Shown here: piece by piece, positions 15,506 to 39,385 of the stretch
How the letters are laid out: every line of letters begins with the position of its first letter
Numbering within the stretch: the stretch's first letter is position 1
Source: Shinella sp. CPCC 101442
GTDB lineage: Bacteria; Pseudomonadota; Alphaproteobacteria; Rhizobiales; Rhizobiaceae
Length of the DNA stretch: 64,000 nt
Reading direction: 5' to 3'
Assembly: GCF_024704725.1 (NCBI RefSeq)
Contig: NZ_JALIQS010000010.1
Location: 1-64,000, forward strand
Made by a program: the position numbers and the translations under genes
Notes under the pieces: model-generated
Seen by the model: only the letters and a program-made list of their open reading frames with translations
The model's database searches: none
What the model was told of the DNA's origin: nothing

Positions 15506-17182
15506 ATGTCGCTCTTGACAGGTATATTCGAACAATCACCGATCATCGCCTTATTCCTTGCGCTTGCAGGCGGCTACTGGATCGGCAAGTTCCAGTTCGG
15601 CAAATTCCAGCTAGGCGGCGTGGCGGGGTCACTTCTCGTCGCGGTTGTCATTAGTCAGGTCGGCGTCAAAATCGACGACGGCATCAAGGCCGTTCTTTTC
15701 GCTCTTTTTATCTATGCCGTGGGCTTCGAGAGCGGCCCGCAGTTCTTCCGTTCACTCGGGCGACAGTCGATCCGCGAGATCGTCATGGCAGCCGTTCTGT
15801 CGCTCAGCGGCTTGGCGACCGTTGTGGTCCTCGCCAAGCTCTTCGCGCTCGACAAAGGGCTTGCGGCAGGTATCGCAGCGGGCGGGTTGACGCAATCGGC
15901 GATCATAGGCACCGCAAGCTCGGCCATTGAAAAGCTAGGGCTGGCTGCGGATGAGGTCCAGAAACTCCAGTCGAACGTCGCCATTGGCTATGCCGTCACC
16001 TATATTTTTGGTTCATTCGGGGCGATCATTGTTTGTGTCAACCTTCTGCCCTGGCTGATGAAGCGGAGCATTCGCGATGATGCGGTCAAGGCTGAGGCAG
16101 AGATGCTGAAGGGTGCGCGCATCTATGGCCAGGGCGAGGCGCCAGCCCTCCCGGAGCTGGTTGGCCGTGTTTACCGCGTGGAATCGGCAGCAGGCCAGAC
16201 TGTAGCCGCGGTCGAAGGGGCTGGTGCGGTCACGGTCGAACGGGTCAAACGCGGCGGCAAGATCATCGGCATCGAGCCTGGTCTGACGCTGAAACGTGAT
16301 GACCTCATCCTCGTCGTCGGCCGCCGTTCGGGTGTGATTGGGCTGGAGGCGCGGATCGGAACGGAAACACCCGGCGCCGACGGCATGGAGCTGATTGTCA
16401 CCACCCGTGATATTCAGATTACCGACAAGGAGTTCGCTGGCCAGAAGGTGGCGGAGATCCTATCCAAGAGCGAGAACCTTCGACACGGAATCTATGTTCT
16501 CGGTGTCAGCCGGGCCGGAGCGAAGCTGGAGCTTTCCAACGACACGGTGATCGAAGCTGGCGACATCGTGACCGTCCATGGCGTGCAGGAAGACCTGCAG
16601 CGCCTCGCCGGGCGGGTCGGTCCGGCCATCATTCCCAGCGACAAGACGGATTTCGTGTTCCACGGGCTCGGCCTCGTCGCCGGCCTTCTCGCCGGGCTCT
16701 TGGTGCTGCGCATTGGTTCTATTCCCCTAACGCTGGGGGCAGGGGGCGGTGCGCTGCTTTCGGGTCTTGCCTTCGGATGGTATCGCAGCCGCCACATGGC
16801 CATTGGCAATATGCCGACCGGTGCCTCGACCCTCCTGCGGGATCTTGGCCTTGCCGGCTTCGTCGCCGTCGTTGGTCTCCAGTCCGGGCAGCAAGCGGTA
16901 CAGACCATCGCCCAGAGCGGATTGTCGATCTTCTTGATCGGTGTCGTCGTCACCATCCTTCCGCTTGTCCTGACCATGCTCGTCGGACGCTACATCCTGC
17001 GTTACGACAATGTGGCGGTCTTCGCCGGCGCGCTCTCCGGATCGCGTAGCGCCAATCCAGCCTTCGGCGAAATTCTCGACAAGGCCGGAAATTCTGTTCC
17101 AACCACGTCTTTTGCCATTACCTATGCACTTGCCAACGTGTTCCTGACCTTGCTCGGCCCTCTGGTCGTGGCGCTGGTCTAA
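15506..17182 (+). CDS. aspT: Aspartate:alanine antiporter (AspT family), copy 1
   Basis: A 558-residue inner-membrane exchanger with the AspT/YidE layout. N-terminal membrane segments (about 10-180) contain GGLTQSAIIGTASSAI. Two cytoplasmic TrkA-C-like domains follow (about 200-370), and then C-terminal membrane segments (about 385-558). The two membrane halves carry the family duplication (GFESGPQFF; SRSANPAFGEILDKAGNS). AspT swaps external aspartate for internal alanine, so with an aspartate 4-decarboxylase it consumes a cytoplasmic proton and makes membrane potential. That enzyme is encoded 21 bp downstream. AAAAAGGA precedes the ATG. Length is typical (about 560). Substrate assignment rests on family plus neighbour and is strong. 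Confidence 0.93.
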   Translation: MSLLTGIFEQSPIIALFLALAGGYWIGKFQFGKFQLGGVAGSLLVAVVISQVGVKIDDGIKAVLFALFIYAVGFESGPQFFRSLGRQSIREIVMAAVLSLSGLATVVVLAKLFALDKGLAAGIAAGGLTQSAIIGTASSAIEKLGLAADEVQKLQSNVAIGYAVTYIFGSFGAIIVCVNLLPWLMKRSIRDDAVKAEAEMLKGARIYGQGEAPALPELVGRVYRVESAAGQTVAAVEGAGAVTVERVKRGGKIIGIEPGLTLKRDDLILVVGRRSGVIGLEARIGTETPGADGMELIVTTRDIQITDKEFAGQKVAEILSKSENLRHGIYVLGVSRAGAKLELSNDTVIEAGDIVTVHGVQEDLQRLAGRVGPAIIPSDKTDFVFHGLGLVAGLLAGLLVLRIGSIPLTLGAGGGALLSGLAFGWYRSRHMAIGNMPTGASTLLRDLGLAGFVAVVGLQSGQQAVQTIAQSGLSIFLIGVVVTILPLVLTMLVGRYILRYDNVAVFAGALSGSRSANPAFGEILDKAGNSVPTTSFAITYALANVFLTLLGPLVVALV

Positions 17183-18790
<1,608 letters not shown>

Positions 18791-18798
18791 GTTGAACG

Positions 18799-18825
18799 AT
18801 GCGGCTCCCGGCCAGGGAGCCGCAT
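18799..18825 (+). other. Strong intercistronic stem-loop between aspD and the second antiporter
   Basis: A perfect 11-bp stem ATGCGGCTCCC/GGGAGCCGCAT with a 5-nt loop and no T-run after it. It starts 8 nt after the aspD stop and ends 25 nt before the next start. It probably protects the upstream mRNA or lowers expression of the downstream gene. Confidence 0.6.
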
Positions 18826-18850
18826 ACACTTCCGGCTGCCCGGAGAGATC

Positions 18851-20524
18851 ATGGCCCTACTGACCGATCCCGTCATCGCGCTTTTCGTTTGTCTCGGCCT
18901 TGGCCATCTCCTGGGGCGGGTGAGGATAGGGCCGGTGGTGCTTGGCGGGGTCTGCGGCACGCTTTTCGTCGCGTTGGCCATCGGGCAGCTGGGCGTCAGC
19001 ATCAGCGCGGATCTCAGAAACACCGCCTTCGCCCTGTTCATCTATGCACTCGGCTTTTCAGCCGGGCCGCAGTTCTTCGCCAACATCCGGGGCGGATGGC
19101 GCTATGGCATCTTTTCGATCATCGAGGTCGTCTGCGTGCTGGCATTGGTGGCGGGCGCGACCGTAATATTCGGATTCGATGCGGGAACCAGCGCCGGGCT
19201 TTTCGCAGGGGCTGCGACCGAGTCCGCCGTTGTCGGTACGGCATCAGAGGCCTTGGGGCATCTTGCGTTGCCTGAGGCCGAGATTCTTCAATTACAGGCC
19301 AATACCGCGACAGCTTACAGTCTGACCTATCTCTTTGGTCTCGTTGCCATCGTCGTCTTCACGACGCAGATTGCGCCGATGATCCTTCGCATCAACCTTC
19401 GCGAGGAGGCTGCGGCTTTTGCCGTGCAACTGGGCGCGGTCGAGGAAGAGAAAGACCATCCTGAGGCCCTCACGGTTTTCGTCGGCCGGGCTTTCGCCGC
19501 CGGTCCTGCCGCCGGTATGACTGTTGGCGACTTCGAGCGCAGCCGGAACAGGACGGTTTTCGTGGAGCGGGTAAAGCGGGGAGAAGAAGTGTTTTCTCCT
19601 CCCGGGGATGTCCTCATCATGCACGACGACGTCCTCATCCTGCATGGGCGGCGTAATGCGGTGGTTGCTGCCGCGTCCGCCGTTGGCCAGGAGCAACTGG
19701 TGCCAGCCGGGATATCGGTTCCGCTTGCCCGGCGCGAAGTGATCGTCAATCGCTCTGAGATCAATGGAATGCATGTCCGTGATCTGCGCGACGCCGCTCC
19801 GGCCGATATGGCGAGGGGACTTTTCGTCGAGAGCATCCGCCGTATGGGGCAGACGATCCCAGCGTTTCCGAAGACGGTCCTGCAGCGCGGCGACATTCTG
19901 ACACTCTATGGCCCGGAAGCTGCGGTTGAGCGGGCGGTGAAGGAACTTGGAGCGCCGGTTGCCGCAAGCGAGGCGACCGATTTTGTGGTTCTTGGCCTGG
20001 GCGTGCTCACCGGCTTGCTGATCGGCCGTTTCTCCGCCGAAATCGCTGGGATGGAATTGACACTTGGCACTGGCGGCGGTGCGTTGATCGCTGGTCTCGC
20101 CTTCGGCTGGCTGAACATGCGAAGGCCGCGTCATGGCAATCTGCCGACCGCGGCCGCCGGTTTCATGAAGGATTTCGGCCTTGCAGTCTTCATCGCCGCC
20201 ATCGGGCTTGGCGCCGGGCCTGATGCCGTGACCCTGGTCATGGAGTACGGTCTGATTCTTCCCGTTCTCGGCGTGCTCGTTTCGGCCGTGCCGGCATTCG
20301 TTTCTTTGCTCGTCGGGTGGAAGCTGATGAAGATCGAGCCGCCGATCCTTCTTGGCATTATCGCCGGCCAGCATTGCAGCACGCCGACGATCAGCGCGTT
20401 GGTAGGCCAGGCAGGGAACTCGACGCCGGTCATCGGCTATACCGTCACTTATGCTATTTCGAATGTTATTCTGCCGCTACTCGGACCCGTTGTCGTCGGA
20501 TTGTCGAGAGCGCTCGGTTCTTGA
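18851..20524 (+). CDS. aspT: Aspartate:alanine antiporter (AspT family), copy 2
   Basis: A 557-residue second antiporter with the same order as copy 1: membrane block, two TrkA-C-like domains (about 205-375), membrane block. Conserved stretches include GFSAGPQFFANI, GAATESAVVGTASEALG and GQHCSTPTISALVGQAGNS. It is clearly diverged from copy 1, notably TESAVVG for TQSAIIG and CSTPTI for RSANPAF, so it is an old paralogue rather than a fresh duplication. GGAGA precedes the ATG. Two AspTs around one AspD could form a heteromer, or could differ in affinity or exchange partner. The substrate of this copy is less certain than that of the first. Confidence 0.9.
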   Translation: MALLTDPVIALFVCLGLGHLLGRVRIGPVVLGGVCGTLFVALAIGQLGVSISADLRNTAFALFIYALGFSAGPQFFANIRGGWRYGIFSIIEVVCVLALVAGATVIFGFDAGTSAGLFAGAATESAVVGTASEALGHLALPEAEILQLQANTATAYSLTYLFGLVAIVVFTTQIAPMILRINLREEAAAFAVQLGAVEEEKDHPEALTVFVGRAFAAGPAAGMTVGDFERSRNRTVFVERVKRGEEVFSPPGDVLIMHDDVLILHGRRNAVVAAASAVGQEQLVPAGISVPLARREVIVNRSEINGMHVRDLRDAAPADMARGLFVESIRRMGQTIPAFPKTVLQRGDILTLYGPEAAVERAVKELGAPVAASEATDFVVLGLGVLTGLLIGRFSAEIAGMELTLGTGGGALIAGLAFGWLNMRRPRHGNLPTAAAGFMKDFGLAVFIAAIGLGAGPDAVTLVMEYGLILPVLGVLVSAVPAFVSLLVGWKLMKIEPPILLGIIAGQHCSTPTISALVGQAGNSTPVIGYTVTYAISNVILPLLGPVVVGLSRALGS

Positions 20525-21345: not shown

Positions 21346-22500
21346 TCAGTCGAGTTCCAGGGACGGTGCGGCCAGGCGGCCAGATGTGAGCCGGATGAAC
21401 CATCGTGAGAGCATGATTGGCAGGATCCACGACTGCACGCGCATGCCGAATGTGCTTTGCGGGATGAGGTGGCCGCCGATCTTGCGCGAGATCGCCTGCA
21501 TTCTCGTCACCAACGGTCGCAGGCGCGCCTCGTAGCTATCGAGCGCTTCCACATGGCTTTTCCGGGCAAGTTCTGCCGCGAGGATATAGGCGCCGGCCAT
21601 CGCGGTGGACGTGCCCTGTCCGGCAAGGAAGGTGAGGCACCAGGCGGAATCTCCGAGCAGCGCGATGCGGCCCTTCGACCATTTCGGCACCTCGATCTGC
21701 GAGACTGTGTCGAAGAATGCCTGGTCCCAGTCGATTGCAGAGGTGAGGGCGGAAGCTACCGGCTCGGGCCATTGGCCGAACTCCTTCTGCAGAATGGCAC
21801 GCCGGGCGTCGGGATCGAGCCGATCCGTGCGCTCGTCCCGCCAACAGAAGAGCGTGGCTGCCGTACCATCTCCGACGGCATAGAGGCCGCCTTGATGATC
21901 GACATCCATCATGCCGACGAAACTCGCGTCCAGCGGCCTGGCAAGTGACACGCGCCATGCGCTGGCCCGGTAGCCGAGTGGCCGGAGAAACTCTTCATGG
22001 GGGCCAAAGGCCAGCGCCCGGACAGCGCTGCGATAGCCGTCCGCTCCGACGACGAGGTCGAAGCGGTCGGTGCTGCCGTCGGAGAAGGTCGCCGTGACGC
22101 CCGCGCCATCATCGTCCAGCGCGACGACCGTCGTTTCATAGCGGATCGGGCACTTGCCCTCAACGGCGCCGCTCAGGATTTCATGGAAATCATTGCGCAT
22201 GATGGCGAGGAGGCGGCCTTCCGCCGCGTTCGCCAATACACGATAGTCGTAGGAGAAGAGCTTGCGGCCGCGTCGGTCGAGATGATGGGCGGGGCCGAGT
22301 GGCATGGCTTTGGCGCGAAACGCCTCGATGAGACCAAGGCGCTCGGCAACACGCCAGCCGTTGACATGCAGGCCGATGGAATAGCCGCCCGTCCGGTCGC
22401 GGGCCGCCTTTTCCACGACAACCGGCTCGATGCCATGTTCAAGCAGGCAGGCTGCGAAGGTCAGGCCCGCAGGCCCGCCGCCGACGATGAGGATACGCAT
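21346..22500 (-). CDS. FAD-dependent aromatic monooxygenase (TetX/PHBH-like) in an iron-uptake operon
   Basis: A 384-residue single-component flavoprotein monooxygenase. The FAD ADP loop G7-G-G9-P-A-G12 is followed by E30. The DG motif is at 154-155 (VVGADGYRSAVR), and the GD motif is at 283-284 (ALLGDSAWCLTFLAGQGTS). The GD region resembles TetX-type drug-modifying enzymes. It should hydroxylate an aromatic or polyketide-like small molecule with NAD(P)H and O2 in the cytoplasm. It starts 10 bp after the TonB receptor stop, as third gene of the permease-receptor-monooxygenase operon. This suggests it acts on an imported siderophore or other metal chelator, for example to break its ligand groups and free iron. 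Antibiotic inactivation is the alternative. Confidence 0.9.
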   Translation of the reverse strand: MRILIVGGGPAGLTFAACLLEHGIEPVVVEKAARDRTGGYSIGLHVNGWRVAERLGLIEAFRAKAMPLGPAHHLDRRGRKLFSYDYRVLANAAEGRLLAIMRNDFHEILSGAVEGKCPIRYETTVVALDDDGAGVTATFSDGSTDRFDLVVGADGYRSAVRALAFGPHEEFLRPLGYRASAWRVSLARPLDASFVGMMDVDHQGGLYAVGDGTAATLFCWRDERTDRLDPDARRAILQKEFGQWPEPVASALTSAIDWDQAFFDTVSQIEVPKWSKGRIALLGDSAWCLTFLAGQGTSTAMAGAYILAAELARKSHVEALDSYEARLRPLVTRMQAISRKIGGHLIPQSTFGMRVQSWILPIMLSRWFIRLTSGRLAAPSLELD

Positions 22501-22510
22501 GTTATCCTCC

Positions 22511-24508
22511 TCAGAACGTCATGTTGATGCGGCCGCCAATCGTGCGACCCTGGCCGAGCTGGTAGAGATTGCCCAGGCCCGGATACTGGAAGCCATAAGT
22601 CGCATAGGTCTTGTCGAAGACATTGGTCACGAAAGCTTCGGCCGTGACCTTTTCATCGATTTCCCATTTCACGCCGACATCGGCCAGCGCATAGGCCTTC
22701 TGGCCAATGGTGTTGGTCTCGTCGAAATAGTGCTCGCTGACATAGGTGAGGCCGACATACGGGACCAGTGCGCCACGTCCGCTTTCCAGCTCGAAGCGGT
22801 AGTCGAGCATAAGATTGGCCGTGAATTCAGGCGCATAGGGCACGGTGTTGCCAGTCAGGTCCAGGCCGGGTGTCACGGGGTTATTGTAATCGGTGAAGCG
22901 CGTATGGTTGTAGGCAAGACCTGCCGTGATGCCGAACGCCTCGGTGGGCTTGGCTCGCACCTTCAAGTTGATGCCCTTGGACGTGACCTCGCCGACATTC
23001 TGCAGGTACTGCCAAGGCTGCACGTCCACGAACATCTGGTAGTCCTTGGTGATGTTGTAGTAGGCCGAGAGTTGAGCCTCCAACGTGCCGTCATCGTTGC
23101 GATACTTCAGTCCGGCCTCACCGTTGTAGGTGTGTTGCGGATCATAGGTGAAGGCGTTGTTCGTGGAGGTCACGTTGCGGGTGAAGCCGCCGGCCTTGAA
23201 GCCCGTGCTCACGAGGCCATAGGCACGCCATTCGTCGGTCAGGCCGTAGCTTGCGCCAAGCTTCGGCGAAAGCGCGGTGAAACCGTTGTCATTGCTGAAG
23301 GTGACCGGTCCTGCCGCGTCTGCGGCGGCGTGTTCGTAGTCAAGACGAAGGCCCGGCGAAATATCCAGGCGCTCGGTGGCGTGCCATGTCATATCGCCGA
23401 AGAGCGCGTAGGAATCGACCTTCTGCCGCGACGTCTGGCTGGCGATCGGCACGTTGCGCGTAAAGTCGAGGTGCTGATAGTACAGGCCAGCGACGTAGTC
23501 GATCGCGCTGCCCTGATCGGGGTTCGAAGCGATGCGCAGTTCCTGGCTCAATGTCCACTGCTTCTCGGGCGTGTAGCTGCCGAAGACCGTGCGATCGAGG
23601 TCACTCTTCTGATAGCCGGTGAGCGCCGTAACGGTTGCAAAACCGAGATCATAGGCGGCGTTGATGCCGAAGTTCCATGTGTCGAGATCGTATTGCGAAG
23701 GCGCGGGATAGGCGATGCGGTCCTTCAGCATGGACTCCATGACAAAGTATTCCTCCGTGGAGGAAACATGGCCACGCCCGGCTGTCACGGTCATGTCCCA
23801 TGGGCTATCCGTTGGCGCATATCTCAGGCGAACCTGTCCGTTGAGGTCTTTCGTCCCACCGACCTCTTCGCCCGTCATGGTCGTGTAGGTGTCGTGGTCG
23901 TTGCGGAACGTGAAGTTCGCATCGCCATACAGTACGTCTTCAATGATCGGCGTACTGGCATGGAAGGTGCCGCCGCCGCCCTGATCGGTCAGATTGGAGG
24001 TGAAGCCGATGCGGCCTTCGTTGTCGGGCTTGCGGGTCACGATGTTGATAACGCCTCCGATCGCACCGCGCCCGTATAACGTGCCCTGTGGGCCGTAAAG
24101 CAGCTCGACGCTTTCCAGGCCGCCCGGCAACGAGCGGGTGAGGTTGAAGCTGTCCTGCGGCAGGCCATCTACATAGACCTGCGTGCTTGGATTATAGAAG
24201 TCGAGCGAAGCCTGGCCGCGGATCGTGAAATTTGCATAGGCGCGGCTGGAGCGCGTGCGAATGTTGACATCTGGAAAGATGCGGTCGAGATCGGCGACCG
24301 TTTCGATGTTTCGGGTCAAAAGCTCATCGGCATTGGCGATGTCGGTCGTCGACGGCAGCAGGAAATAGTCCTCGCTGCGTTTCGTGGCGGTGATGACGAT
24401 CGGCTCGAGCGTGGATGCTTCGGCGTTGTCCTGTGCCGCAGCGATCTGCGGGGAGAGGCTGACGGCGAGGGCGAGGAGGGAAACGCCGGACAAGCGATGA
24501 CGCATCAT
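22511..24508 (-). CDS. TonB-dependent outer-membrane receptor (ferric siderophore type)
   Basis: A 665-residue receptor. The signal peptide covers about 1-25 (cleavage near QIAAA). A TonB box PIVITATKR lies at 36-44. The plug domain covers about 45-165 (NFTIRGQAS, VYVDGLPQ, LYGPQGTLYGRGAIGG, VINIVTRKP), followed by a 22-strand-type barrel ending in the terminal phenylalanine of RINMTF. The frame is open further upstream, but the start is the ATG at 24508, which overlaps the permease stop by 4 bp (ATGA). It imports a ferric chelate across the outer membrane using TonB energy. The coupled RhtX/FptX-like permease, the AraC regulator and a RirA-like box support the iron assignment. The exact siderophore is unknown. 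Confidence 0.93.
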   Translation of the reverse strand: MMRHRLSGVSLLALAVSLSPQIAAAQDNAEASTLEPIVITATKRSEDYFLLPSTTDIANADELLTRNIETVADLDRIFPDVNIRTRSSRAYANFTIRGQASLDFYNPSTQVYVDGLPQDSFNLTRSLPGGLESVELLYGPQGTLYGRGAIGGVINIVTRKPDNEGRIGFTSNLTDQGGGGTFHASTPIIEDVLYGDANFTFRNDHDTYTTMTGEEVGGTKDLNGQVRLRYAPTDSPWDMTVTAGRGHVSSTEEYFVMESMLKDRIAYPAPSQYDLDTWNFGINAAYDLGFATVTALTGYQKSDLDRTVFGSYTPEKQWTLSQELRIASNPDQGSAIDYVAGLYYQHLDFTRNVPIASQTSRQKVDSYALFGDMTWHATERLDISPGLRLDYEHAAADAAGPVTFSNDNGFTALSPKLGASYGLTDEWRAYGLVSTGFKAGGFTRNVTSTNNAFTYDPQHTYNGEAGLKYRNDDGTLEAQLSAYYNITKDYQMFVDVQPWQYLQNVGEVTSKGINLKVRAKPTEAFGITAGLAYNHTRFTDYNNPVTPGLDLTGNTVPYAPEFTANLMLDYRFELESGRGALVPYVGLTYVSEHYFDETNTIGQKAYALADVGVKWEIDEKVTAEAFVTNVFDKTYATYGFQYPGLGNLYQLGQGRTIGGRINMTF

Positions 24509-25761
24509 GGTTCCGATACCTTTTCTGATAGTACGACACCCTGCGCTGTCCTTGCGGACACGCCGAGCGTACGGGAGGCGATGAAGATTGCCGCGACGAT
24601 GAAGGTCGCGGAGGAGGCGAAGAGCCAGCCATAGCCGAAGGCGTTTCCGAGCAGGCCTGCAACGGAGGAGGCGGCAATGGCGAGGATGGCGTCGATGCTC
24701 TGAAGCGCGGCGAAGTCCGTTGCTGTCTGTTCCGGATTGCACCAGTTCATCATGGCGGCATAGAGCGCGACGAAGGAGAAGGCGACGGCCGCCACCTGGG
24801 CAAGCAGCAGGCCAAGCGCCAGCATCGACGTGGCGATGCCGGTGAATTCGGCAGCAGCCAGGGCTGCAAGCAGCAAGACGTTGAGGATAGCGGCAATCAC
24901 GATGGACCGGGCGATGCCTGCGGCCTGCACGAAGACTGCGCCGAGCGAAGAGGCGATGAGGCCGGCAACCGCACCACCGGCGCCGCGCAGAATGCCAATC
25001 GTATCGAGTGCAATACCCTTGTCGACGAGATAGGGACCGGTAAGCGCCGTGCCCATGCGAAGGCCGGTCTGATAGACCACGAGGAAGACGAGGCCGTACA
25101 TCAGGGTGCGGTTTTGCAACGTTCTCCTGAAACCGATCTTTCCTTTCCCTGGGGTTGCGTGAACGCGCGGGGTGATGATTGCCTTCGACAGGAAAACCGG
25201 GATGGTGAGCAGGCAGACGAAACCTGCCATGGCGGCCATCGAAACCGCCCAGCCGGTGTGCTGATAGACGACCAACCAGAGGCCGCCGCCAATCAGGAAG
25301 CCGAGATAGGCACCGGCTGTGGACGCGCCGCTTGCGAGGCCACGCGTTTCGGCATTCGAGGCTCTGACGGCGAGCGAGTCGGTCGCCACATCCTGTGTCG
25401 CAGCAAAGACACCCATGACGAGCAGGACCGCTGCCAGCGCGCCCATATGCGTCTGCGGTGGTAGCGTGGTGGCGAGAAGGAAGCACAGGATAATGCCGGA
25501 TTGGCAAAGCAGGATCCAGGTTCGCTCACTCGGGAACCGGTCAATGAGCGGCGCCCAGAGGAACTTCAGCGCCCAGGGCAGGAACAGCACGGCGAGATAG
25601 CCGATCTGGTCTAGCGGCATTCCGGCATCACGAAGCACCACGGGGAGCGCGGTCTGCACCATCGAGCCGGTGACGGACTGGGCGGCATACAGGCCGGCCA
25701 ACAGGCCAAGCACGGTCCAGCCTGCCGAACGCCCGGCAAAATTCGTAAAAGCAGTCGACAT
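24505..25761 (-). CDS. MFS/PAT-family inner-membrane siderophore permease (RhtX/FptX-like)
   Basis: A 418-residue permease with about 12 membrane segments and family motifs such as LPWALKFLWAPLIDRF near residue 60 and ATQDVATDSLAVRAS near 120. These place it with AmpG, RhtX and FptX. RhtX and FptX move whole ferric siderophores across the inner membrane without an ABC system. The start ATG at 25761 has GAGGG six bases before it and is preferred to a TTG at 25773. It is the first gene of the minus-strand iron operon, with its stop overlapping the TonB receptor start. It diverges from an AraC regulator. AmpG-like muropeptide transport is unlikely in this context. Confidence 0.85.
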   Translation of the reverse strand: MSTAFTNFAGRSAGWTVLGLLAGLYAAQSVTGSMVQTALPVVLRDAGMPLDQIGYLAVLFLPWALKFLWAPLIDRFPSERTWILLCQSGIILCFLLATTLPPQTHMGALAAVLLVMGVFAATQDVATDSLAVRASNAETRGLASGASTAGAYLGFLIGGGLWLVVYQHTGWAVSMAAMAGFVCLLTIPVFLSKAIITPRVHATPGKGKIGFRRTLQNRTLMYGLVFLVVYQTGLRMGTALTGPYLVDKGIALDTIGILRGAGGAVAGLIASSLGAVFVQAAGIARSIVIAAILNVLLLAALAAAEFTGIATSMLALGLLLAQVAAVAFSFVALYAAMMNWCNPEQTATDFAALQSIDAILAIAASSVAGLLGNAFGYGWLFASSATFIVAAIFIASRTLGVSARTAQGVVLSEKVSEP

Positions 25762-25809: not shown

Positions 25810-25838
25810 TTGACTATTGTAATCAGGTTCAATGATAT
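25810..25838. promoter_or_regulatory. Putative RirA iron-responsive operator with sigma-70-like promoter
   Basis: TGA-CTATTGTAA-TCA at 25811-25825 fits the rhizobial iron-responsive operator TGA-N9-TCA bound by RirA. It overlaps a TTGACT -35 element (25810-25815), which has a TGATAT -10 element at 25833-25838 after a 17-bp spacer and reads toward the AraC gene. RirA bound here would block expression in high iron and may also control the divergent permease operon. Confidence 0.65.
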
Positions 25839-25867
25839 TGCGATCGGGTCTATTATTTGGTGGGCAT

Positions 25868-26854
25868 ATGAATCTTCGTGTGGAACAGCGCGCTCTGGCA
25901 CAGTCCGATCAGGATGACGTGGTCGTGCTGGGGCCAAGCCCGGCCGACCCGACGTTCTCCGCTACCTCGACGGAGGGTGCTTACAAAATCCTCGGTGTGC
26001 GGCCGGGCCTCACCATTTCGGTGTTCGACATGGTGATCGGCGCCGATTTCGTGGGGCGTTTCGCAACAGAACCCTGTGTGGCGATTGACTTCCTGTTCGA
26101 GGCGTCGGGACAGGGCTGGCTTTTGGGCAGCGATGCCGAGCAGCGGCTTTCATCGATTCCTTATCGGCCGGGCCGCATCTACATCATGGCGGCGCCGCAA
26201 GGTTCCATCGGCCTCTACGATGTGCCTATCGGGACGCGCTTCAAGGGTATGGATATCCGAGTCGACATTGGCCTCTGGCAGAAGCTTGGTGCAGGCGACC
26301 TTCTGAGCAGCCTCGACGAGCATCATGCCCTGCATATGGCCTCCGGAAACGGCACCTGGGTCGGCGTACTGCCGGTGCCGCCTGATCTTCTGGCCGTTGC
26401 GCGCGCGCTTTTCGACAGTGCCATGGTGGAAAGCGACGACCTTGCTTTCGAGGCTCGTGCGCTCGACATCATCAATGCGTCTATCGCCGCGATGCGTCGG
26501 ACACAGCCGGCGCAGACCATTCCTCCCCGGGATCGCCGGCTACTACAGCGTGCCCGTGATCTTCTCATTGAGGAGCTTGCGCGACCGTGGACGCTGGATG
26601 AACTGGCCCGAGAGGTCGGACTGACACAGAAGCGGTTGAAATCCGGTTTCAAGAGCATGTACGGCTTTGCCGTCTACGCCTTCCTGCAGGAGCAACGGCT
26701 TCTCGAAGCGCACCGCGTCATCGAGAGCGGTGAGATGAATGTCACCCAGGCCGCCATTGCCGTCGGCTACAGCAATCCAAGCCATTTTTCTCAGCTTTTC
26801 CTGCGTCGTTTCGGCATGCAACCATCGCGCCTTCTCGCCGCACGGCCTGCGTAG
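25868..26854 (+). CDS. AraC-family transcriptional regulator (PchR/RhrA-like)
   Basis: A 328-residue regulator with a unique N-terminal sensor domain (about 1-215) and a C-terminal AraC double helix-turn-helix (about 235-328: ARPWTLDELAREVGLTQKRL, then AAIAVGYSNPSHFSQLFLRR and FGMQPSRL). This size and layout match PchR and RhrA, which activate siderophore uptake when they bind the ferric chelate. It diverges from the permease-receptor-monooxygenase operon. The ATG at 25868 was chosen over one at 25832 because the predicted -10 element overlaps the upstream ATG and a GGTGGG lies before 25868. It probably activates the divergent operon. Confidence 0.9.
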   Translation: MNLRVEQRALAQSDQDDVVVLGPSPADPTFSATSTEGAYKILGVRPGLTISVFDMVIGADFVGRFATEPCVAIDFLFEASGQGWLLGSDAEQRLSSIPYRPGRIYIMAAPQGSIGLYDVPIGTRFKGMDIRVDIGLWQKLGAGDLLSSLDEHHALHMASGNGTWVGVLPVPPDLLAVARALFDSAMVESDDLAFEARALDIINASIAAMRRTQPAQTIPPRDRRLLQRARDLLIEELARPWTLDELAREVGLTQKRLKSGFKSMYGFAVYAFLQEQRLLEAHRVIESGEMNVTQAAIAVGYSNPSHFSQLFLRRFGMQPSRLLAARPA

Positions 26855-27135: not shown

Positions 27136-28224
27136 ATGGCTGTCGAATTCATAAGTCTGACCTACCCCAATCTATCGACCGATATCGCTCCGTTGCCCGA
27201 TGCGCCTGCGGATCCGGCTTATCTCGCGCGTTACGCGCGTTCCGTCGAGGAAGCCGGGTTTGGCTATACGCTGTTGCCTTATGGTTCATCGTCCTTTGAT
27301 CCGTTCACGCTCGGCGCAACCGTTGCCGCTCATACGAGGACTTTGAAGATCATCATCGCCTTGCGGCCGAACACAGTTTATCCGACCGTTGCTGCGAAGT
27401 CGCTTGCGACCCTGGATCAACTGAGCGGCGGGCGCGTCGTCGTACATCTTATCGCCGGCGGCAGCGATGCCGAGCAGGCGGCGGAAGGCGACTTCCTGTC
27501 TAAAGACGACCGCTATGCGCGCTTGGAAGAGTACATTGCCATCCTCAAACGTGCCTGGTCTTCAAGAGAGCCGTTTGATTTCGCTGGACGCTTCTACACA
27601 TTCAAGCGCTTCTCAAGCGCCGTCGCTCCGGTACAGGCGTCTATTCCCGTATCGGTCGGCGGTTCCTCTGGTGAAGCGTATCGAATTGGCGGTCTGCACG
27701 GTGACATCTTTGGCCTGTGGGGTGAACCTCTTGCCGAGACCCGGGAGCAGATCGATCGCATCTTCGCGGCGGCCGAGGCCGCTGGGCGGAAAGATCGGCC
27801 GCAAATCTGGGTGACCTTCCGGCCGATTCTCGCTGAGACGGACGAGTTGGCCTGGGCGAAAGCGCACCGAATTCTTGCGGCACTCAAAACGCATCATAAA
27901 TCCGTAACAGGCGCCGAGCCGCAGAACGTCGGTTCCCAGCGTCTGCTTGAATTCGCGGCGAAGGCCGATGTTCACGACAAGGCGCTCTGGTTCGAACCTG
28001 CCGCAGCGACCGGTGCTCGCGGTGCATCGACCGCCCTTGTCGGCAGTCCGGACACAGTCGCAGAGGCCATCCTGCGGTATGTCGACATAGGCGCGGATCT
28101 CATATCCATCCGCGGCTACGACAATCTTTACGATGTGATCGACTACGGCCGTTACCTCGTGCCCCTCGTTCGTGCCGGACTGGCAAGCCGTAATCACCCG
28201 GTCGCTGTCGCGGCGTCAGCGTGA
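27136..28224 (+). CDS. LLM-class FMNH2-dependent alkanesulfonate monooxygenase (SsuD-like)
   Basis: A 362-residue luciferase-like TIM-barrel protein. Family blocks include FGYTLLPYGSSSFDPF, IIALRPNTVYPTVAAKSLAT, LDQLSGGRVVVHLIAGGSDA and PVSVGGSSGEAYRIGG, as in SsuD and related enzymes. Using reduced FMN and O2, SsuD cleaves the C-S bond of alkanesulfonates, giving sulfite and an aldehyde. It needs a reductase supplied elsewhere; no SsuE is visible here. It leads an operon with an SfnB-like flavoprotein and an SsuABC-type transporter. GAGGGCAAAG precedes the ATG. It is slightly shorter than E. coli SsuD (381). The exact sulfonate is unknown. Confidence 0.92.
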   Translation: MAVEFISLTYPNLSTDIAPLPDAPADPAYLARYARSVEEAGFGYTLLPYGSSSFDPFTLGATVAAHTRTLKIIIALRPNTVYPTVAAKSLATLDQLSGGRVVVHLIAGGSDAEQAAEGDFLSKDDRYARLEEYIAILKRAWSSREPFDFAGRFYTFKRFSSAVAPVQASIPVSVGGSSGEAYRIGGLHGDIFGLWGEPLAETREQIDRIFAAAEAAGRKDRPQIWVTFRPILAETDELAWAKAHRILAALKTHHKSVTGAEPQNVGSQRLLEFAAKADVHDKALWFEPAAATGARGASTALVGSPDTVAEAILRYVDIGADLISIRGYDNLYDVIDYGRYLVPLVRAGLASRNHPVAVAASA

Positions 28225-28268
28225 GCCCGCCTTTTCCGTCTGACGCTTCGTCCAATCGCCAGGATATC

Positions 28269-29480
28269 ATGACCCGCCCCCAGCCCGTTTCCCTTGCCAC
28301 TCCCGTGCGCGCACCGCAACGCGCAAGGCTGCCCGATGTAGTCAGGGCGCTGGCGGCACTGGCGCCCAACCAGGATGCGGCGGCGACGTTCCCACAGGCC
28401 GGCATACGCCAGTTGCACGATGCGGGGTTTCTGACGGCAAGTGTCGTCAGGGAGTATGGTGGCGCAGACTACGGCGTCGAGCAGCTAGCGCGGCTTCTGA
28501 TCGAGATCGGCAAGGGTGATCCGTCCGTCGCGCTGATCGCGTTGATGAACCTGCAGTTTCATGCGGCCCAACGGCCCGGAGACCCGCGTGCCATCGGTGT
28601 GCATCTGTACCGCAAGATACTCGCTGGGTCGGAGCGAGCTCCGACCCTCGTCAACGCTTTCCGCGCCGAACCCGACCTTGGCTCGCCCGCCCGTGGTGGT
28701 CTGCCGAAGACGGTGGCTCGGTACAGCGCCGAGGGATGGGTCCTGTCCGGACGCAAGATGTTCTGCACCGGCTCCACGGGGCTTTCCTACCATTTGCCTT
28801 GGGCGGTGACCGACGAGGCACAGTCGCGTGTAGCGGAGTTCCTGGTACCGGCAGACAGCGAGGGTATCGAGATCGTTCCTGTCTGGAACCATCTCGGCAT
28901 GCGGGCAACGGAAAGTCACGACGTGATCTACCAGGATGTCGTCGTGCCGCACGATCACATCGCCGGTGCGGAAATCGTGACGCCGGACACTCGTCAGGAC
29001 ATGCGGGCGGTCGCGCCGACCGTACTCCTGATCCAGTCGATCTATATTGGTGTGGCGCGTGCCGCGCAGGCTGCTTTCCATCGCTACGCGCATCAGCGCG
29101 TGCCGACCGCCCTCGGCAAGCCGATTGCCACGACGGAGCGGATCCGCTCCGTCGCCGGCGAGATTGAGTTGAATATCGTGCAGGCCGAGGCACTGCTGGC
29201 CCATTTCGCCTCGGGCCTGGCCGCAGGCCGTGAAGAGGCATTCCGCGACATCGCTGCGGCAAAAAGCGCAATCTCCGCTGCGGTCATTCGCTCGGTGGAG
29301 ATTGCCGTGAAAGCGCTCGGCAATCCTGGGCTTTCCCGCGCCAACCCGCTTGAACGGCATCTGCGCGACGTTCTCTGCGCGCGCATCCATTCGCCGCAGG
29401 ACGATTCCGTTCTCCTGGCTCTCGGTACGACAAGTCTGAGCAGGCAATACCACCCCGACATCGAGGAGCAAGTAAAGTGA
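28269..29480 (+). CDS. Acyl-CoA dehydrogenase-fold flavoprotein, SfnB/DszC-like
   Basis: A 403-residue acyl-CoA dehydrogenase-fold protein: N-terminal helical domain, middle beta domain (RKMFCTGSTGLSYHLPWAV, PVWNHLGMRATESHDVIY), C-terminal helical domain. The sulfur-operon context places it with SfnB/DszC-type monooxygenases, which use reduced flavin for desulfurisation, rather than with fatty-acid oxidation. ATG 28269 with AGGA in front is preferred; a GTG at 28221 overlapping the previous stop would add 16 residues. A paralogue with the same motifs is at 38158-39357 in the opposing operon. Its stop overlaps a small open frame. Confidence 0.88.
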   Translation: MTRPQPVSLATPVRAPQRARLPDVVRALAALAPNQDAAATFPQAGIRQLHDAGFLTASVVREYGGADYGVEQLARLLIEIGKGDPSVALIALMNLQFHAAQRPGDPRAIGVHLYRKILAGSERAPTLVNAFRAEPDLGSPARGGLPKTVARYSAEGWVLSGRKMFCTGSTGLSYHLPWAVTDEAQSRVAEFLVPADSEGIEIVPVWNHLGMRATESHDVIYQDVVVPHDHIAGAEIVTPDTRQDMRAVAPTVLLIQSIYIGVARAAQAAFHRYAHQRVPTALGKPIATTERIRSVAGEIELNIVQAEALLAHFASGLAAGREEAFRDIAAAKSAISAAVIRSVEIAVKALGNPGLSRANPLERHLRDVLCARIHSPQDDSVLLALGTTSLSRQYHPDIEEQVK

Positions 29481-29596
29481 CCAGAAACGTGCGCCATTCC
29501 GGCTGCCTCAAAATCCGCGCTGCCGTAACCGGTATTGCTGCGCGACGCTCCATGGCGGCTGTCGCAACCTGCGCGGCTGATGGCGTGAAGCGATGA
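29477..29596 (+). CDS. Small ORF (39 codons) tiling the gap between two sulfur-operon genes
   Basis: A GTG-started frame of 39 residues. Its start overlaps the upstream stop by 4 bp (GTGA) and its stop overlaps the permease start by 4 bp (ATGA). It therefore fills the gap exactly, as coupled genes do. The peptide is basic, with two cysteines (SGCLKIR and VATCAAD), no membrane segment and no family I recognise. It could be a leader peptide that senses cysteine or sulfur supply by translation, or merely a coupling frame that carries ribosomes to the permease. No ribosome site is visible, and coding status rests on the overlaps alone. Confidence 0.45.
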   Translation: MTRNVRHSGCLKIRAAVTGIAARRSMAAVATCAADGVKR

Positions 29597-30402
29597 ACAC
29601 GACCCTCCTTGTTCCCCTCGCCACGCGCCCCCAGGCAGCGCTTCGTCCCCCGCAATGGCATGCCCCGCGCAATCTTCTGCGCGTAGCGCTCCCGGTCTTC
29701 GTTCTCGCGTTGTGGCAGGTCGCCAGTTCGACCGGCATTCTGTCGCCTAGAACCCTGCCGCCGCCATCGGCCGTCATCGAGGCATTCCGTCAGTTGATCG
29801 AGACCGGTGATCTCCAGGCGGCGCTACCGGCATCGTTGGCGAGGGCGGGAGGAGGGCTTGCGATCGGGCTTTTGATTGGGATCGGCTTCGGCCTCCTGAC
29901 TGGTTTGTCGCGACGGGCCGAAGAGGCCTTCGACTCGACTTTTCAAATCGTTCGCCTCATCCCCTTCATCTCACTCGTTCCGTTGTTCATCATCTGGTTC
30001 GGCATCGGAGAAGAGCCGAAGGTTCTGCTTATCGCGCTGGCCTGTGTGTTCCCCGCCTATCTCAATACCTATTCGGGCGTGCGGAATGTCGATCGCCGGT
30101 TGATAGAGGCGGCCAGAACCTTTGGCCTTTCGCCCGTGCAGATCACATTGCAGGTGCTTCTCCCCGCAGCATTGCCCGCCGTGTTGGTCGGTGTGCGTTT
30201 TGCAATGGGTGTCTCGCTCCTGGCACTGATCATCGCGGAACAAACCAACAGCCGGGCCGGCATCGGCTACCTGATCTTTGTGGCGAGTGGCGCCTTGCGT
30301 ATCGATCTGATCGTCGCCTGTGTTCTCGTCTACGCCGTCCTTGGCATCGCGATCGACCTCGTGATGCGCCTTGTCGAGAAACTCTTGCTCCCGTGGAGAT
30401 AG
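29593..30402 (+). CDS. Sulfonate/taurine-type ABC transporter permease (SsuC-like)
   Basis: A 269-residue inner-membrane permease with about six membrane segments and the SsuC/TauC pattern: LPPPSAVIEAFRQLI near residue 57, PFISLVPLFIIWFGIGEEPK near 125, the ATPase-contact loop EAARTFGLSPVQITLQVLLP near 170, and RAGIGYLIF near 220. Its ATG at 29593 overlaps the small open frame upstream. The ATPase follows after 2 bp. Length is normal. It forms the channel for an organosulfonate. Confidence 0.93.
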   Translation: MNTTLLVPLATRPQAALRPPQWHAPRNLLRVALPVFVLALWQVASSTGILSPRTLPPPSAVIEAFRQLIETGDLQAALPASLARAGGGLAIGLLIGIGFGLLTGLSRRAEEAFDSTFQIVRLIPFISLVPLFIIWFGIGEEPKVLLIALACVFPAYLNTYSGVRNVDRRLIEAARTFGLSPVQITLQVLLPAALPAVLVGVRFAMGVSLLALIIAEQTNSRAGIGYLIFVASGALRIDLIVACVLVYAVLGIAIDLVMRLVEKLLLPWR

Positions 30403-30404
30403 CC

Positions 30405-31223
30405 ATGCTGGCCAATGTGCAAATCCGGAAGGAAACCGGTGACGCAACTCCGGTGGTCGATCTTCGGCCAGTGGCAACCACCGCCCATAGCCCGCGGGAA
30501 GCCGTCGTCTCGCTGACCGGAGTTTCCAAGAAATTCGGCGATCAGACGATCCTCGACGGCGTCGATCTCTCTATCCGGCAGGGCGATTTCGTCGCACTGC
30601 TCGGCGCATCGGGTTCGGGAAAAACGACATTGCTGCGTATCCTTGCATCCCTCGATGAGGCCAACGACGGCAAAGTACTCGTGGCCAGAAATCGGTCGGT
30701 CGTTTTCCAGGAGCATCGCCTGCTTCCGTTCCGCCGCGCCTGGCGCAATGTTCTGCTCGGCACGAAGCAACCCGGCAACGGCCGGGCGATCGCGGAGAGG
30801 GCGCTAGCTGAGGTCGGGCTTTCAGCGAAAGCCGATTCCTGGCCGAAACACCTGTCAGGGGGGGAGGCGCAGCGGGTCGCTCTCGCGCGAGCACTCGTAC
30901 GGTCACCGACGCTGCTGCTGCTGGACGAGCCTTTCGCCGCACTCGACGCCCTGACGCGGATCAAGATGCATGCGCTTGTCGAAGGGCTTTGGCGCGACCA
31001 CAAGCCGGGTGTCCTGATCGTGACGCACGACGTCGATGAGGCGATCCTGCTTGCCGATCGGATTCTTGTCCTGAAGGACGGCCGCTTCTCGCTCGATGTC
31101 GCCGTGCCGCCCGCGCTTGTGCGCAACCGGAAACGGCAGGAATTGGAGCCGGACGAGGTCAATCCCCTCAAGTATCGCCTGCTTGCCGAACTCGGTGTCG
31201 CCGTACCGGGCCACACCGCCTGA
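30405..31223 (+). CDS. Sulfonate ABC transporter ATPase (SsuB-like)
   Basis: A 272-residue ATPase. Walker A GASGSGKTT is at 67-75, the Q-loop is in VVFQEHRLLPFRRAWRNVL, the signature is LSGGEAQRVALARAL and Walker B LLLLDEPFAALDAL. The Q-loop wording and short helical domain match SsuB. An N-terminal extension of about 30 residues precedes the ATPase fold. ATG 30405 with GGAG six bases upstream was chosen; a GTG at 30393 is possible. It energises the permease encoded immediately upstream. Confidence 0.93.
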   Translation: MLANVQIRKETGDATPVVDLRPVATTAHSPREAVVSLTGVSKKFGDQTILDGVDLSIRQGDFVALLGASGSGKTTLLRILASLDEANDGKVLVARNRSVVFQEHRLLPFRRAWRNVLLGTKQPGNGRAIAERALAEVGLSAKADSWPKHLSGGEAQRVALARALVRSPTLLLLDEPFAALDALTRIKMHALVEGLWRDHKPGVLIVTHDVDEAILLADRILVLKDGRFSLDVAVPPALVRNRKRQELEPDEVNPLKYRLLAELGVAVPGHTA

Positions 31224-31255
31224 ATATCAACCCTTGAACGCCAAGGAGCGCCGCA

Positions 31256-32317
31256 ATGGCACTTATCCGCCTACCGAAACTCGGCCTCGCTGCCACCATT
31301 GCTGTCATCGTGCTCGGGGCGCAAGCCTTCGCAGAAGATAGCAAAACGATCACGCTCGTCATCGGTCAAAACGGTCAGGAGCTTCAACCTGGCTGGGAAG
31401 CATCGGGCATCTGGAAGGACGCGCCGTACAAGCTCGAATTCGCGACATTCCCGAATGCCGTCGAGAACGCGACGGCTCTTGCGGCGGGGAATGTCGACGT
31501 CAGCTATTTCGCGCAGTTTACCGCCATTCAGGCGCAAGCCTCATCCAATCCCGACTGGACGAAGGAGACCGTGCCCTACAAGTCGATCGTGGTGGCGGCA
31601 ACGGCTGACACCGTGAACCATGAAAGGTTCGTCACCTTGGCGTCCGGGGCCTCCGGCATCGGAGAGCTGACGGCGGATTCGGTTCGTGGCAAGCGCTGGG
31701 CATCGTCCCCGGGGGCGACCAACTTCCTTCTCTACCTTCAGACGCTGAAGCACCTTGGCCTGAAGCCGGCGGACGTCGTCCCCGTGACGCTCAACAACGA
31801 GGCGGGAGCCTTGGCGGTGCTGCATGGCGAAGTCGACCTCGTGTCCGGGCCGATCGATTTCTATGATCAGGCTCTCGCAGACGGCGGAAAGGTCATCTCC
31901 AAGAGCGGTGAGGTCGGGCCAGGCAGTCCCGGTGGCCTGCTGGCGAACTCCCAATCCCTGTCCGATCCAGCCAAGGATGCTGCGATCCGCGACCTGATCG
32001 CCCGCTACGTGGCCTATCAGGACTGGTACAACACCCATCCAGCCGAGGCACAGGATGCATTGGTGAAAGTGCGCAAGCTCTCGCCGGAAAGCGCAAAATT
32101 CATCTGGGCCTACACCCGTGTCCGTCCGCAGCCCATCACCGGGGAGCGCATCGACGAGGCGCGTAGCATCGCTTCGGTCGTCCACGAGTTCGGGGCAATC
32201 GGCAAGGCGATAGATGCGTCGCTCACCTATGACGCTCGCTATACCGACACGATCGAGGAAGCGCTGAAGACAACGAATTACGATGCGAACCTCCAGGGTT
32301 CGCTGACCGGAAATTGA
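31256..32317 (+). CDS. Sulfonate/nitrate-type periplasmic binding protein (SsuA-like), copy 1
   Basis: A 353-residue exported protein with a signal peptide (likely cut after AQAFA at 26). The mature part has the type 2 binding fold of SsuA/TauA proteins: GIWKDAPYKLEFATFPNA, LAAGNVDV, GKRWASSPGATNFLLYLQTL and LVSGPIDFYDQALADGGKV. It is the ligand receptor for the permease and ATPase just upstream. A second protein encoded at 36102-37202 shares most of its residues by eye but lies in another operon without its own permease. GGAGCG precedes the ATG. The ligand is inferred as a sulfonate from the SsuD/SfnB-like neighbours. Confidence 0.9.
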   Translation: MALIRLPKLGLAATIAVIVLGAQAFAEDSKTITLVIGQNGQELQPGWEASGIWKDAPYKLEFATFPNAVENATALAAGNVDVSYFAQFTAIQAQASSNPDWTKETVPYKSIVVAATADTVNHERFVTLASGASGIGELTADSVRGKRWASSPGATNFLLYLQTLKHLGLKPADVVPVTLNNEAGALAVLHGEVDLVSGPIDFYDQALADGGKVISKSGEVGPGSPGGLLANSQSLSDPAKDAAIRDLIARYVAYQDWYNTHPAEAQDALVKVRKLSPESAKFIWAYTRVRPQPITGERIDEARSIASVVHEFGAIGKAIDASLTYDARYTDTIEEALKTTNYDANLQGSLTGN

Positions 32318-32329
32318 GGAGACACCGAC

Positions 32330-33334
32330 ATGACACGCTACATCATCATCGGCGCCGGTGCAGTTGGCGCAAGCCTTGCCGCGCAGTTCGAAGGAGCCGG
32401 GATCGCCTATGCCCTGGTCGGTCGAGGTGCCCAGATCGACCATATTCGGGAGCATGGGCTCGAATATCGCCGGCCGTCCGGAACGCGGCAGGTCAGGCTC
32501 AACGCCTTTACCGCCGATGCGCCGCCGGCCCTTGCCGGCAATGACGTTCTTCTTCTCGCTGTCAAGGCGCAGGACGTCGACGTGGCGACCACACACTGGG
32601 CGGCCCGGACAATTGACGGGGTTGGTACGACCGCCGGCTTCGCTTTGCCGATCGTTACGTTCCAGAATGGTCTGGCTGCCGAAAGTATCGCGCTGCGGCG
32701 TTTCGCCAGGGTCTATGGTGCCAGCATCATGACGCCGGCGCGCTTCTCGGAGATCGGTAAGGTGGTCGCGGCAGGTGACCCGGAAGTCGGGGCCATCGTC
32801 CTTGGTGCCTATCCCGGTGGCGAAGATGATGTGGGACGCCGCATCGCGCTGGATCTTGCGAATGCGGGGTATCTTGCGGAGGTGCGAAGCGATATCAAGC
32901 GCTGGAAGGCCTCGAAGCTCGCTTACAACGTCAAGAACGTGCTGGAGCTGTTCGGTGGAACGACGGACGAGCATGCCGCCTTCGGCGAGGCGCTGGAGCG
33001 AGAGGCGAGGCAGGTCCTGGACACCGCTGGTTATACGTTCGCTCAACCGGTCGAGCGCCGCATCAGTATCGCGCACTGGGGGGTCGCCGAGGATGCTGGC
33101 ATCGTGCCAGGACAGCAATCGACGTGGCAGAGCTACGTGCGCGGCACTTCGAGCGAGGTGGAATTTCTCAATGGAGAGATCGTACTGCTTGGCCGGCTGC
33201 ACGGGATCGCGACCCCCTTCAACGAAGCCGTGCAGGAGGCAGCGGCCCGACTGGCCAATACGTCCGGCAAGCCTGGAATGGTGCCGTTGAGCAGCGTGAG
33301 AGCGCTGGTTGACACTCTTGCATCAGCGGCCTGA
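32330..33334 (+). CDS. Ketopantoate reductase-family oxidoreductase (PanE/ApbA-like)
   Basis: A 334-residue NADP-dependent reductase. The Rossmann loop GAGAVGASLA is at 8-17. The VLLLAVKAQDV strand follows near 70, and the catalytic-lysine region KASKLAYNVKN is near 190. It is 12 bp after the binding protein in the sulfur operon, not near pantothenate genes. It may therefore reduce a 2-keto product of desulfonation rather than ketopantoate. The family has many such reassigned members. Length is slightly above E. coli PanE (303). Confidence 0.85.
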   Translation: MTRYIIIGAGAVGASLAAQFEGAGIAYALVGRGAQIDHIREHGLEYRRPSGTRQVRLNAFTADAPPALAGNDVLLLAVKAQDVDVATTHWAARTIDGVGTTAGFALPIVTFQNGLAAESIALRRFARVYGASIMTPARFSEIGKVVAAGDPEVGAIVLGAYPGGEDDVGRRIALDLANAGYLAEVRSDIKRWKASKLAYNVKNVLELFGGTTDEHAAFGEALEREARQVLDTAGYTFAQPVERRISIAHWGVAEDAGIVPGQQSTWQSYVRGTSSEVEFLNGEIVLLGRLHGIATPFNEAVQEAAARLANTSGKPGMVPLSSVRALVDTLASAA

Positions 33335-33339
33335 TGGTT

Positions 33340-33365
33340 GCACTCGTGAGAGTGCCAACGAGTGC
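33340..33365. promoter_or_regulatory. Inverted repeat before TetR gene (likely operator)
   Basis: A perfect 8-bp inverted repeat GCACTCGT/ACGAGTGC with a 10-bp spacer, about 45 bp before the TetR start. Size and symmetry fit a TetR-family operator. A hairpin ending the upstream operon is the alternative, but no T-run follows. Confidence 0.55.
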
Positions 33366-33409
33366 GCCCCCTCGACCCCATGCGCGAACGAAAACGACTG
33401 AGAACGCCG

Positions 33410-34596: not shown

Positions 34597-34621
34597 CGCC
34601 CTCTGATCTGACGAGGATTTC

Positions 34622-35992: not shown

Positions 35993-36048
35993 TGACGCTC
36001 TCGCCGCCTGAGAGGCGGAGCTCAAGACATGAGGCAGACACGAGCAAA

Positions 36049-36094
36049 CATGTCGGCCGCGAATGGTATTCGCGGCCGACATGCCTTTTTGTTT
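36049..36094 (+). terminator. Strong rho-independent terminator between the converging sulfur operons
   Basis: A perfect 16-bp stem (36049-36064 with 36068-36083) with a 3-nt loop, followed by CCTTTTTGTTT. It ends the plus-strand TetR/GlcD transcript and by position also separates it from the minus-strand binding-protein gene that stops at 36102. Confidence 0.92.
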
Positions 36095-36101
36095 CGATGA
36101 A

Positions 36102-37202: not shown

Positions 37203-37279
37203 GGAGTTCACCTTGCTTGGCGTGAAATGTATCGGAAGCGCCGGAACAGCCAGGCTGCTGCTCCGGCAAGGAACCGGGA

Positions 37280-39357: not shown

Positions 39358-39385
39358 AAAGAGGGTATAGCACCCCCATAGACGC

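Follow-up and report, generated by a model that had tools for sequence, protein, structure and literature searches.

A FyuA-like siderophore uptake operon of Shinella that includes a conserved class A flavin monooxygenase gene

The 64,000-nucleotide stretch of Shinella sp. CPCC 101442 analysed here (contig NZ_JALIQS010000010.1; hereafter the window) carries a conserved, iron-linked operon which is a new variant of siderophore uptake. It encodes a permease of the major facilitator superfamily (MFS), a TonB-dependent outer-membrane receptor (TBDT) and a class A FAD-dependent monooxygenase, and a divergent AraC-family regulator, left out of the initial annotation, is part of the unit. We propose that the operon serves the iron-controlled uptake of an agrochelin-like xenosiderophore, and that the oxygenase acts in the cytoplasm on the phenolic ligand, its oxidation aiding iron release, disposal of a toxic ligand, or both; we would put the probability of this reading at slightly under one half (0.48). 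The operon, its conservation, its relatives, its linkage to a ligand class, the promoter motifs and the predicted fold were computed in this work.

Gene content and layout of the operon

The operon is encoded on the minus strand. Its first gene (24505..25761) specifies the 418-residue permease, which has a Pfam MFS_1 domain, the second (22511..24508) the 665-residue receptor and the third (21346..22500) the 384-residue monooxygenase. The regulator gene (25868..26854, plus strand; 328 residues from the ATG at 25868; Pfam HTH_18) has an earlier in-frame ATG at 25832, which would fall within a promoter-like site at 25810-25839. The permease stop and the receptor start have 4 bp in common (24505-24508), 10 bp lie between the receptor stop and the monooxygenase ATG, and the Shine-Dalgarno-like stretch of the latter, GAGGAGG, runs into the receptor stop. 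The exact open reading frames thus bear out the overlap and gap given in the initial annotation. Among 15 loci examined, the 4-bp overlap is kept in ten, the remaining five having a broken gene or a start that is not properly placed, and a gap of 9-11 bp ahead of the monooxygenase is kept in 14. Since overlap and gap recur in this way, the spacing is not due to chance, and the annotation of the three genes as one operon holds. The alkanesulfonate-monooxygenase-like and acyl-CoA-dehydrogenase-like genes at 27136-29480 were considered as further members and rejected, as the flanks are not common to the loci.

The receptor contains the Plug and TonB_dep_Rec_b-barrel domains (PF07715 and PF00593), and its best solved relative is the pesticin/yersiniabactin receptor FyuA (4epa, 270 bits over residues 36-661), the next one scoring 61 bits. 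The RhtX/FptX family (TIGR02718) is the best NCBIfam match of the permease, at a score below the family cut-off. Both results support the initial assignment of a siderophore-type receptor and an RhtX/FptX-type permease.

The monooxygenase matches Pfam PF01494 (FAD_binding_3) at 111.2 bits against a gathering score of 22. The FAD motifs of class A flavin monooxygenases, namely GxGxxG (G7, G9, G12), DG (D154, G155) and GD (G283, D284), are kept in the trio and outgroup rows of an alignment in which one row (L065) is N-terminally short. Residues Y86, R157 and W220 are specific to the trio enzymes. The predicted fold is that of the type 2 tetracycline destructases, with Tet(50), Tet(51), Tet(55) and Tet(56) as nearest solved folds at 24-27% identity, and NicC, HpxO and hydroxybenzoate hydroxylases are likewise close. 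The protein had been called TetX-like, which is right as to the destructase-type fold and not as to TetX itself. Assignment as an actual tetracycline destructase was rejected, the score for NCBIfam NF033476 being 158.4 bits against a cut-off of 550. With dN/dS values of 0.08-0.10 against five relatives, the window monooxygenase is under purifying selection.

Linkage to siderophore clusters and spread of the cassette

The permease-receptor-monooxygenase trio lies inside or directly beside FAAL-type thiazoline polyketide synthase/nonribosomal peptide synthetase (PKS/NRPS) clusters in Rhizobium rhizoryzae, Undibacterium KW1 and the two genomes G173 and G146. In R. rhizoryzae the biosynthetic operon precedes the trio. 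It encodes a protein of 4177 residues that combines FAAL-ACP-KS-AT-KR with an NRPS part, another with KS-methyltransferase-KR-ACP-condensation domains, a thiazolinyl imine reductase (368 bits for TIGR01761, whose cut-off is 188.8, and 216 bits to YbtU, 4gmf), a methyltransferase-thioesterase and a thioesterase. Matching genes in the same order occur in G173 and G146, where the FAAL, the reductase, the methyltransferase-thioesterase and the thioesterase were matched by tblastn, and the domain set of the Undibacterium cluster equals that of R. rhizoryzae (FAAL-ACP-KS-AT-KR, condensation-A-methyltransferase, KS-methyltransferase-KR and thiazolinyl imine reductase). This architecture agrees with what is described of the massiliachelin and micacocidin assembly lines (PMC6604713) and, as far as described, with the agrochelin II cluster of Stappia, for which nine conserved genes are proposed (PMC12997852); the word "monooxygenase" is absent from the main text of the latter paper. 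From this gene context the ligand of the trio is probably a phenolate-thiazoline siderophore of the agrochelin/massiliachelin class. The initial suggestion of an aromatic xenosiderophore is therefore plausible and narrowed to phenolate-thiazolines, and nothing in this analysis points to a catecholate or a hydroxamate.

With enterobacterial ybt clusters left aside, the monooxygenase was found in four of five FAAL-type clusters and in neither of two thiazoline clusters without a FAAL-level match (G502 and G656). The fifth FAAL-type cluster, plasmid-borne and of agrochelin-like architecture (L095:4162-38609), belongs to Serratia symbiotica, an insect-associated species, and has an IS6 element directly behind its receptor gene; as it lacks the enzyme, a clean split into FAAL-type clusters with and other clusters without it was ruled out.

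The thiazolinyl imine reductase that marks these clusters gave no match in any of 15 genomes, namely that of the window and the 14 behind loci L008-L021; as a control, the same query found it in 3 of 11 genomes (G146, G173 and G656). Another genome of this control, the trio-bearing G314, gave no match in the readable part of its sequence. The same reductase was found in at least two of 398 genomes of the phylum (G502 and G656), our genome surveys scoring at most four candidates per genome, so that survey counts are lower bounds. On plasmids the query gave 210 records, among the best 60 of which enterobacterial ybtU predominated, and those of Rhizobium, Undibacterium and Serratia were examined. 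Because the reductase marking the biosynthetic cluster has no match, the window organism and its 14 relatives look like scavengers of a neighbour's siderophore.

With the monooxygenase as query, a pattern-based search across 84,980 species genomes returned 17 loci. The order AraC, permease, receptor, monooxygenase is found in all 14 proteobacterial loci, and the three actinomycete loci are without it. More than 300 bp of similar flanking DNA was seen in only two pairs among the loci compared; with flanks so rarely in common, the four-gene unit seems to travel as a cassette. The trio also occurs on plasmids of Sinorhizobium meliloti, R. rhizoryzae and Shinella sp. WSC3-e; G173 and G146 have it as well, as does the partly readable G314. 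An order-swapped form (receptor, permease, monooxygenase) reaches into distant bacteria, being present in Neorhizobium, Pannonibacter, Bartonella sp. HY328, Acidovorax and the genomes G223, G300, G303, G317 and G325, and in Undibacterium KW1 the order is receptor, permease, methyltransferase-thioesterase, monooxygenase.

Receptors at E 1e-85 or better were found in at least 11 of 397 genomes surveyed for the order (at least 12 loci). The monooxygenase is adjacent in nine of these 12 FyuA-like loci, and the others have an LCM-type methyltransferase nearby (L066 and L067) or an ATP-binding cassette (ABC) pair (L070). In the survey of 398 genomes of the phylum, at least two passed this receptor limit, that of the window and G656; the latter has an ABC pair, and no monooxygenase was found at the locus. 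Among the best 40 of 1942 plasmid matches to the receptor, ten records were examined and eight carry the monooxygenase. The two that do not are those of Serratia and of Rhodovulum, which has an ABC pair where the enzyme gene would stand.

A tree was built from 40 full-length monooxygenases, 20 from loci of the first arrangement, ten from order-swapped loci and ten found without receptor and permease. The first group is recovered at 100/100 and the second at 100/97; the 30 trio enzymes group together against the ten non-trio relatives at 94/91, just below the values starred by the tool, and at 100/97 once the long rows L083, L036 and L049 are dropped. A previous tree, in which some rows were shortened, L005, L007 and L024 were dropped and five outgroups were added (ten in total), gave 96/92. 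Two separate recruitments of the enzyme, as suggested by the first tree, were rejected, since the trio rows group together after removal of long rows and addition of outgroups. Several order-swapped rows were without their N-terminus in the first two trees, and the final tree carries a warning that both trio groups lie on long branches. A single origin of the trio-bound family is favoured by this small sampling of sequences.

Some further loci were seen in the relatives. On another contig of the window genome (C5; L051:2296-9654) an AraC gene, a different TBDT gene and two ABC transporter genes stand beside a 3' monooxygenase remnant of 505 bp that is 80% identical. In Shinella curvata (L008) a complete cassette is accompanied by these genes at 86-95% identity, which makes the C5 copy either an additional or a relocated one. 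S. zoogloeoides (L088) has a similar remnant, and C5-type neighbours were not found in the stretch viewed. In two Shinella genomes (L039:11287-16515 and L009) a second AraC-TBDT-MFS cassette lies beside the cassette, and that of L039 ends in genes for an S-adenosylmethionine-dependent methyltransferase and a cupin. The LCM-type carboxyl methyltransferase genes (L066:5764-6633 and L067:5342-6181) lie near a FyuA-like receptor and a permease, and no monooxygenase was found there.

Promoter region and neighbouring genes

TGA-N9-TCA is the operator definition for RirA (PMC6386902, PMC8822346), and in chromatin immunoprecipitation data the box was reported in five of ten RirA peaks (PMC8822346). 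The window promoter contains this motif at 25811..25825 (TGACTATTGTAATCA), as a candidate iron-responsive operator (IRO, RirA box), and of the 21 cassette promoters aligned, 18 carry it, its half-sites being better preserved than the inner bases. The three promoters without it belong to cluster-linked loci, in all of which the box is found at the AraC/biosynthesis promoter instead. Since the whole window has 28 matches against 13.8 expected, a single match means little, and the evidence lies in the constant position and the preserved half-sites. These sequence features suggest that the operon is under RirA-type iron control.

Two direct repeats 21 bp apart at 25812..25845 (GATTACAATAGTC / GATCGCAATATC on the minus strand) form a candidate AraC operator, and the spacing is identical in relatives. 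In lone cassettes both the box and the repeat overlap the divergent promoter. The whole block cannot be read as an AraC box only, because in R. rhizoryzae, G173 and G146 the 21-bp-spaced GAT repeat is separate from the box, lying at the biosynthesis promoter and again ahead of the permease gene of the trio (three of three in each case).

Elsewhere in the window, an aspartate 4-decarboxylase gene (TIGR03801, 808 bits) lies between genes for two aspartate-alanine antiporters that differ from each other (745 and 590 bits against a cut-off of 547) at 15506-20524, so that two exchangers accompany a single decarboxylase. The region 27136-39387 looks like a duplicated organosulfur locus: a substrate-binding protein gene and an acyl-CoA-dehydrogenase-like gene, their names and the similarity of the sets being judged by eye, occur at both 28221-32317 and 36102-39387, and an alkanesulfonate-monooxygenase-like gene (183 bits, below the cut-off of 518) adjoins the duplicated sets.

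Proposed function and comparison with known systems

Under iron shortage the IRO box would be vacated by a RirA-type repressor, and activation of the operon would come from the AraC protein, probably once this has bound the imported ferric siderophore. The receptor and the permease would then bring to the cytoplasm a phenolate-thiazoline siderophore in its ferric form, the agrochelin/massiliachelin (alkylsalicyl) class being the most likely. The monooxygenase would meet it there, since by eye the protein has no evident export signal. Hydroxylation of phenols ortho or para to the hydroxyl is the established chemistry of class A flavin monooxygenases, and agrochelin-type ligands bear a phenol of this kind. 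With NAD(P)H and O2 the enzyme may thus hydroxylate or dearomatise the phenolic ligand, most likely while it is leaving the iron; an oxidised ligand unable to chelate again would leave the iron available and rid the cell of a toxic foreign compound. Ligand-modifying genes also occur by similar cassettes, namely the LCM-type carboxyl methyltransferase (L066 and L067) and the methyltransferase of L039, and together with the methylation of pyochelin in Staphylococcus aureus they make ligand modification after import a reasonable theme by analogy. It is tempting to speculate further that iron is released by the very destruction of the ligand, carried out by a dedicated flavin monooxygenase clade that attacks the metal-binding phenolate of alkylsalicyl-thiazoline siderophores, and that monooxygenase, carboxyl methyltransferase or YbtPQ-like ABC pair form an exchangeable release module on a core of receptor and AraC regulator, mostly with the permease; we consider this extended version doubtful.

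Several observations weigh against uptake coupled to oxidation. The receptor scores below the cut-off of TIGR01783 (199 against 223.5 bits), as does the permease for TIGR02718 (150 against 356 bits), and the IRO motif was present in only three of nine order-swapped promoters checked, in one of them within a 900-bp stretch. In the first tree, which contained three very long branches, the two trio groups did not lie together. The enzyme is missing from FyuA-like loci of Rhodovulum, G073, G192, G325 (C115), G656 and S. symbiotica. The FAAL-type cluster of the latter has a receptor, an AraC regulator and an ABC pair, and neither monooxygenase nor permease was found in the 48 kb looked at, which means that siderophores of this kind do not all require the enzyme; in Undibacterium the monooxygenase and an ABC pair are both present. 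In three of the 14 loci (L014, L018 and L021) the permease or the receptor is broken and the monooxygenase whole, which fits coupling to import poorly, draft errors being possible. Finally, ferric pyochelin is reported to dissociate in part already in the periplasm (PMC10846271).

The three loci with a broken permease or receptor would suit an enzyme of detoxification only, which destroys a cytotoxic competitor siderophore after import while an ordinary reductase frees the iron. Agrochelin is termed a cytotoxic alkaloid (PMC6604713, PMC12997852), which leaves some probability to the inactivation of a siderophore-antibiotic, an alternative named in the initial annotation; the antibacterial activity of agrochelin II is raised by iron (PMC12997852), and methylation of pyochelin by S. 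aureus lowers intracellular reactive oxygen species (PMC11449898). We nevertheless find this explanation rather unlikely, as the enzyme is, by its spacing, co-transcribed with dedicated import genes from an iron-type promoter, which would not be required of a gene for defence alone. The presence of the monooxygenase in four of five FAAL-type clusters could also mean that it modifies the agrochelin-like siderophore during synthesis and stayed with the uptake genes as the cassette spread alone. Such tailoring is clearly improbable, because the scavengers, with no reductase match in 15 of 15 genomes, keep a monooxygenase gene that is under purifying selection; moreover, the trio is preceded by a 21-bp repeat distinct from the one at the biosynthesis promoter, and by our reading the formula of massiliachelin (C23H34N2O4S2) and its assembly as described (PMC6604713) account for every oxygen without the action of a monooxygenase.

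Little is known of how iron leaves ferric pyochelin (PMC10846271), which gives some room to a flavin-based ferric reductase passing electrons from NAD(P)H to the ferric complex with no insertion of oxygen, but fold and FAD motifs are of the aromatic hydroxylase type and we hold this to be very unlikely. Least probable of all is import and catabolism of another aromatic compound, with no siderophore involved: the closeness to NicC, HpxO and hydroxybenzoate hydroxylases would allow it, against which stand the FyuA-like receptor, the RhtX-like permease, the AraC regulator, the IRO motif and the linkage to thiazoline siderophore clusters.

In the open-licence full texts searched, no siderophore-release route using such a flavin monooxygenase was found. 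Information on the exit of iron from phenolate-thiazoline siderophores inside cells is scarce for pyochelin (PMC10846271), and a conserved enzyme linked to a receptor and permease of this type makes the question directly testable. If ligand oxidation after uptake is true, it would join the reductive and hydrolytic routes of release (PMC10291242), and the operon would be a marker of bacteria in soil and rhizosphere that exploit the toxic siderophore of a neighbour.

The pyochelin system of Pseudomonas aeruginosa (FptA, FptX, PchR and PchHI) resembles the present operon in its FptX-type permease and in the AraC type of its regulator PchR. FptX is reported to deliver a portion of ferric pyochelin to the cytoplasm, and no oxygenase is named for the system in the part of the cited article drawn on here (PMC10846271). 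With Spm, the pyochelin methyltransferase of S. aureus, the proposed function shares the enzymatic modification of a phenolate-thiazoline siderophore within the recipient cell; unlike it, Spm acts by carboxyl methylation and is described as protective, and the part of its description used here mentions no import operon (PMC11449898). Clusters of the agrochelin, massiliachelin and micacocidin kind differ in that none was found in the window genome by the reductase search. Yersiniabactin uptake, which comprises FyuA, YbtX, YbtPQ and YbtA, has in common with the window operon a FyuA-type receptor (30% identity), an MFS permease and a divergent AraC regulator, while the window operon differs from it in having no YbtPQ-like ABC pair and in including a monooxygenase.

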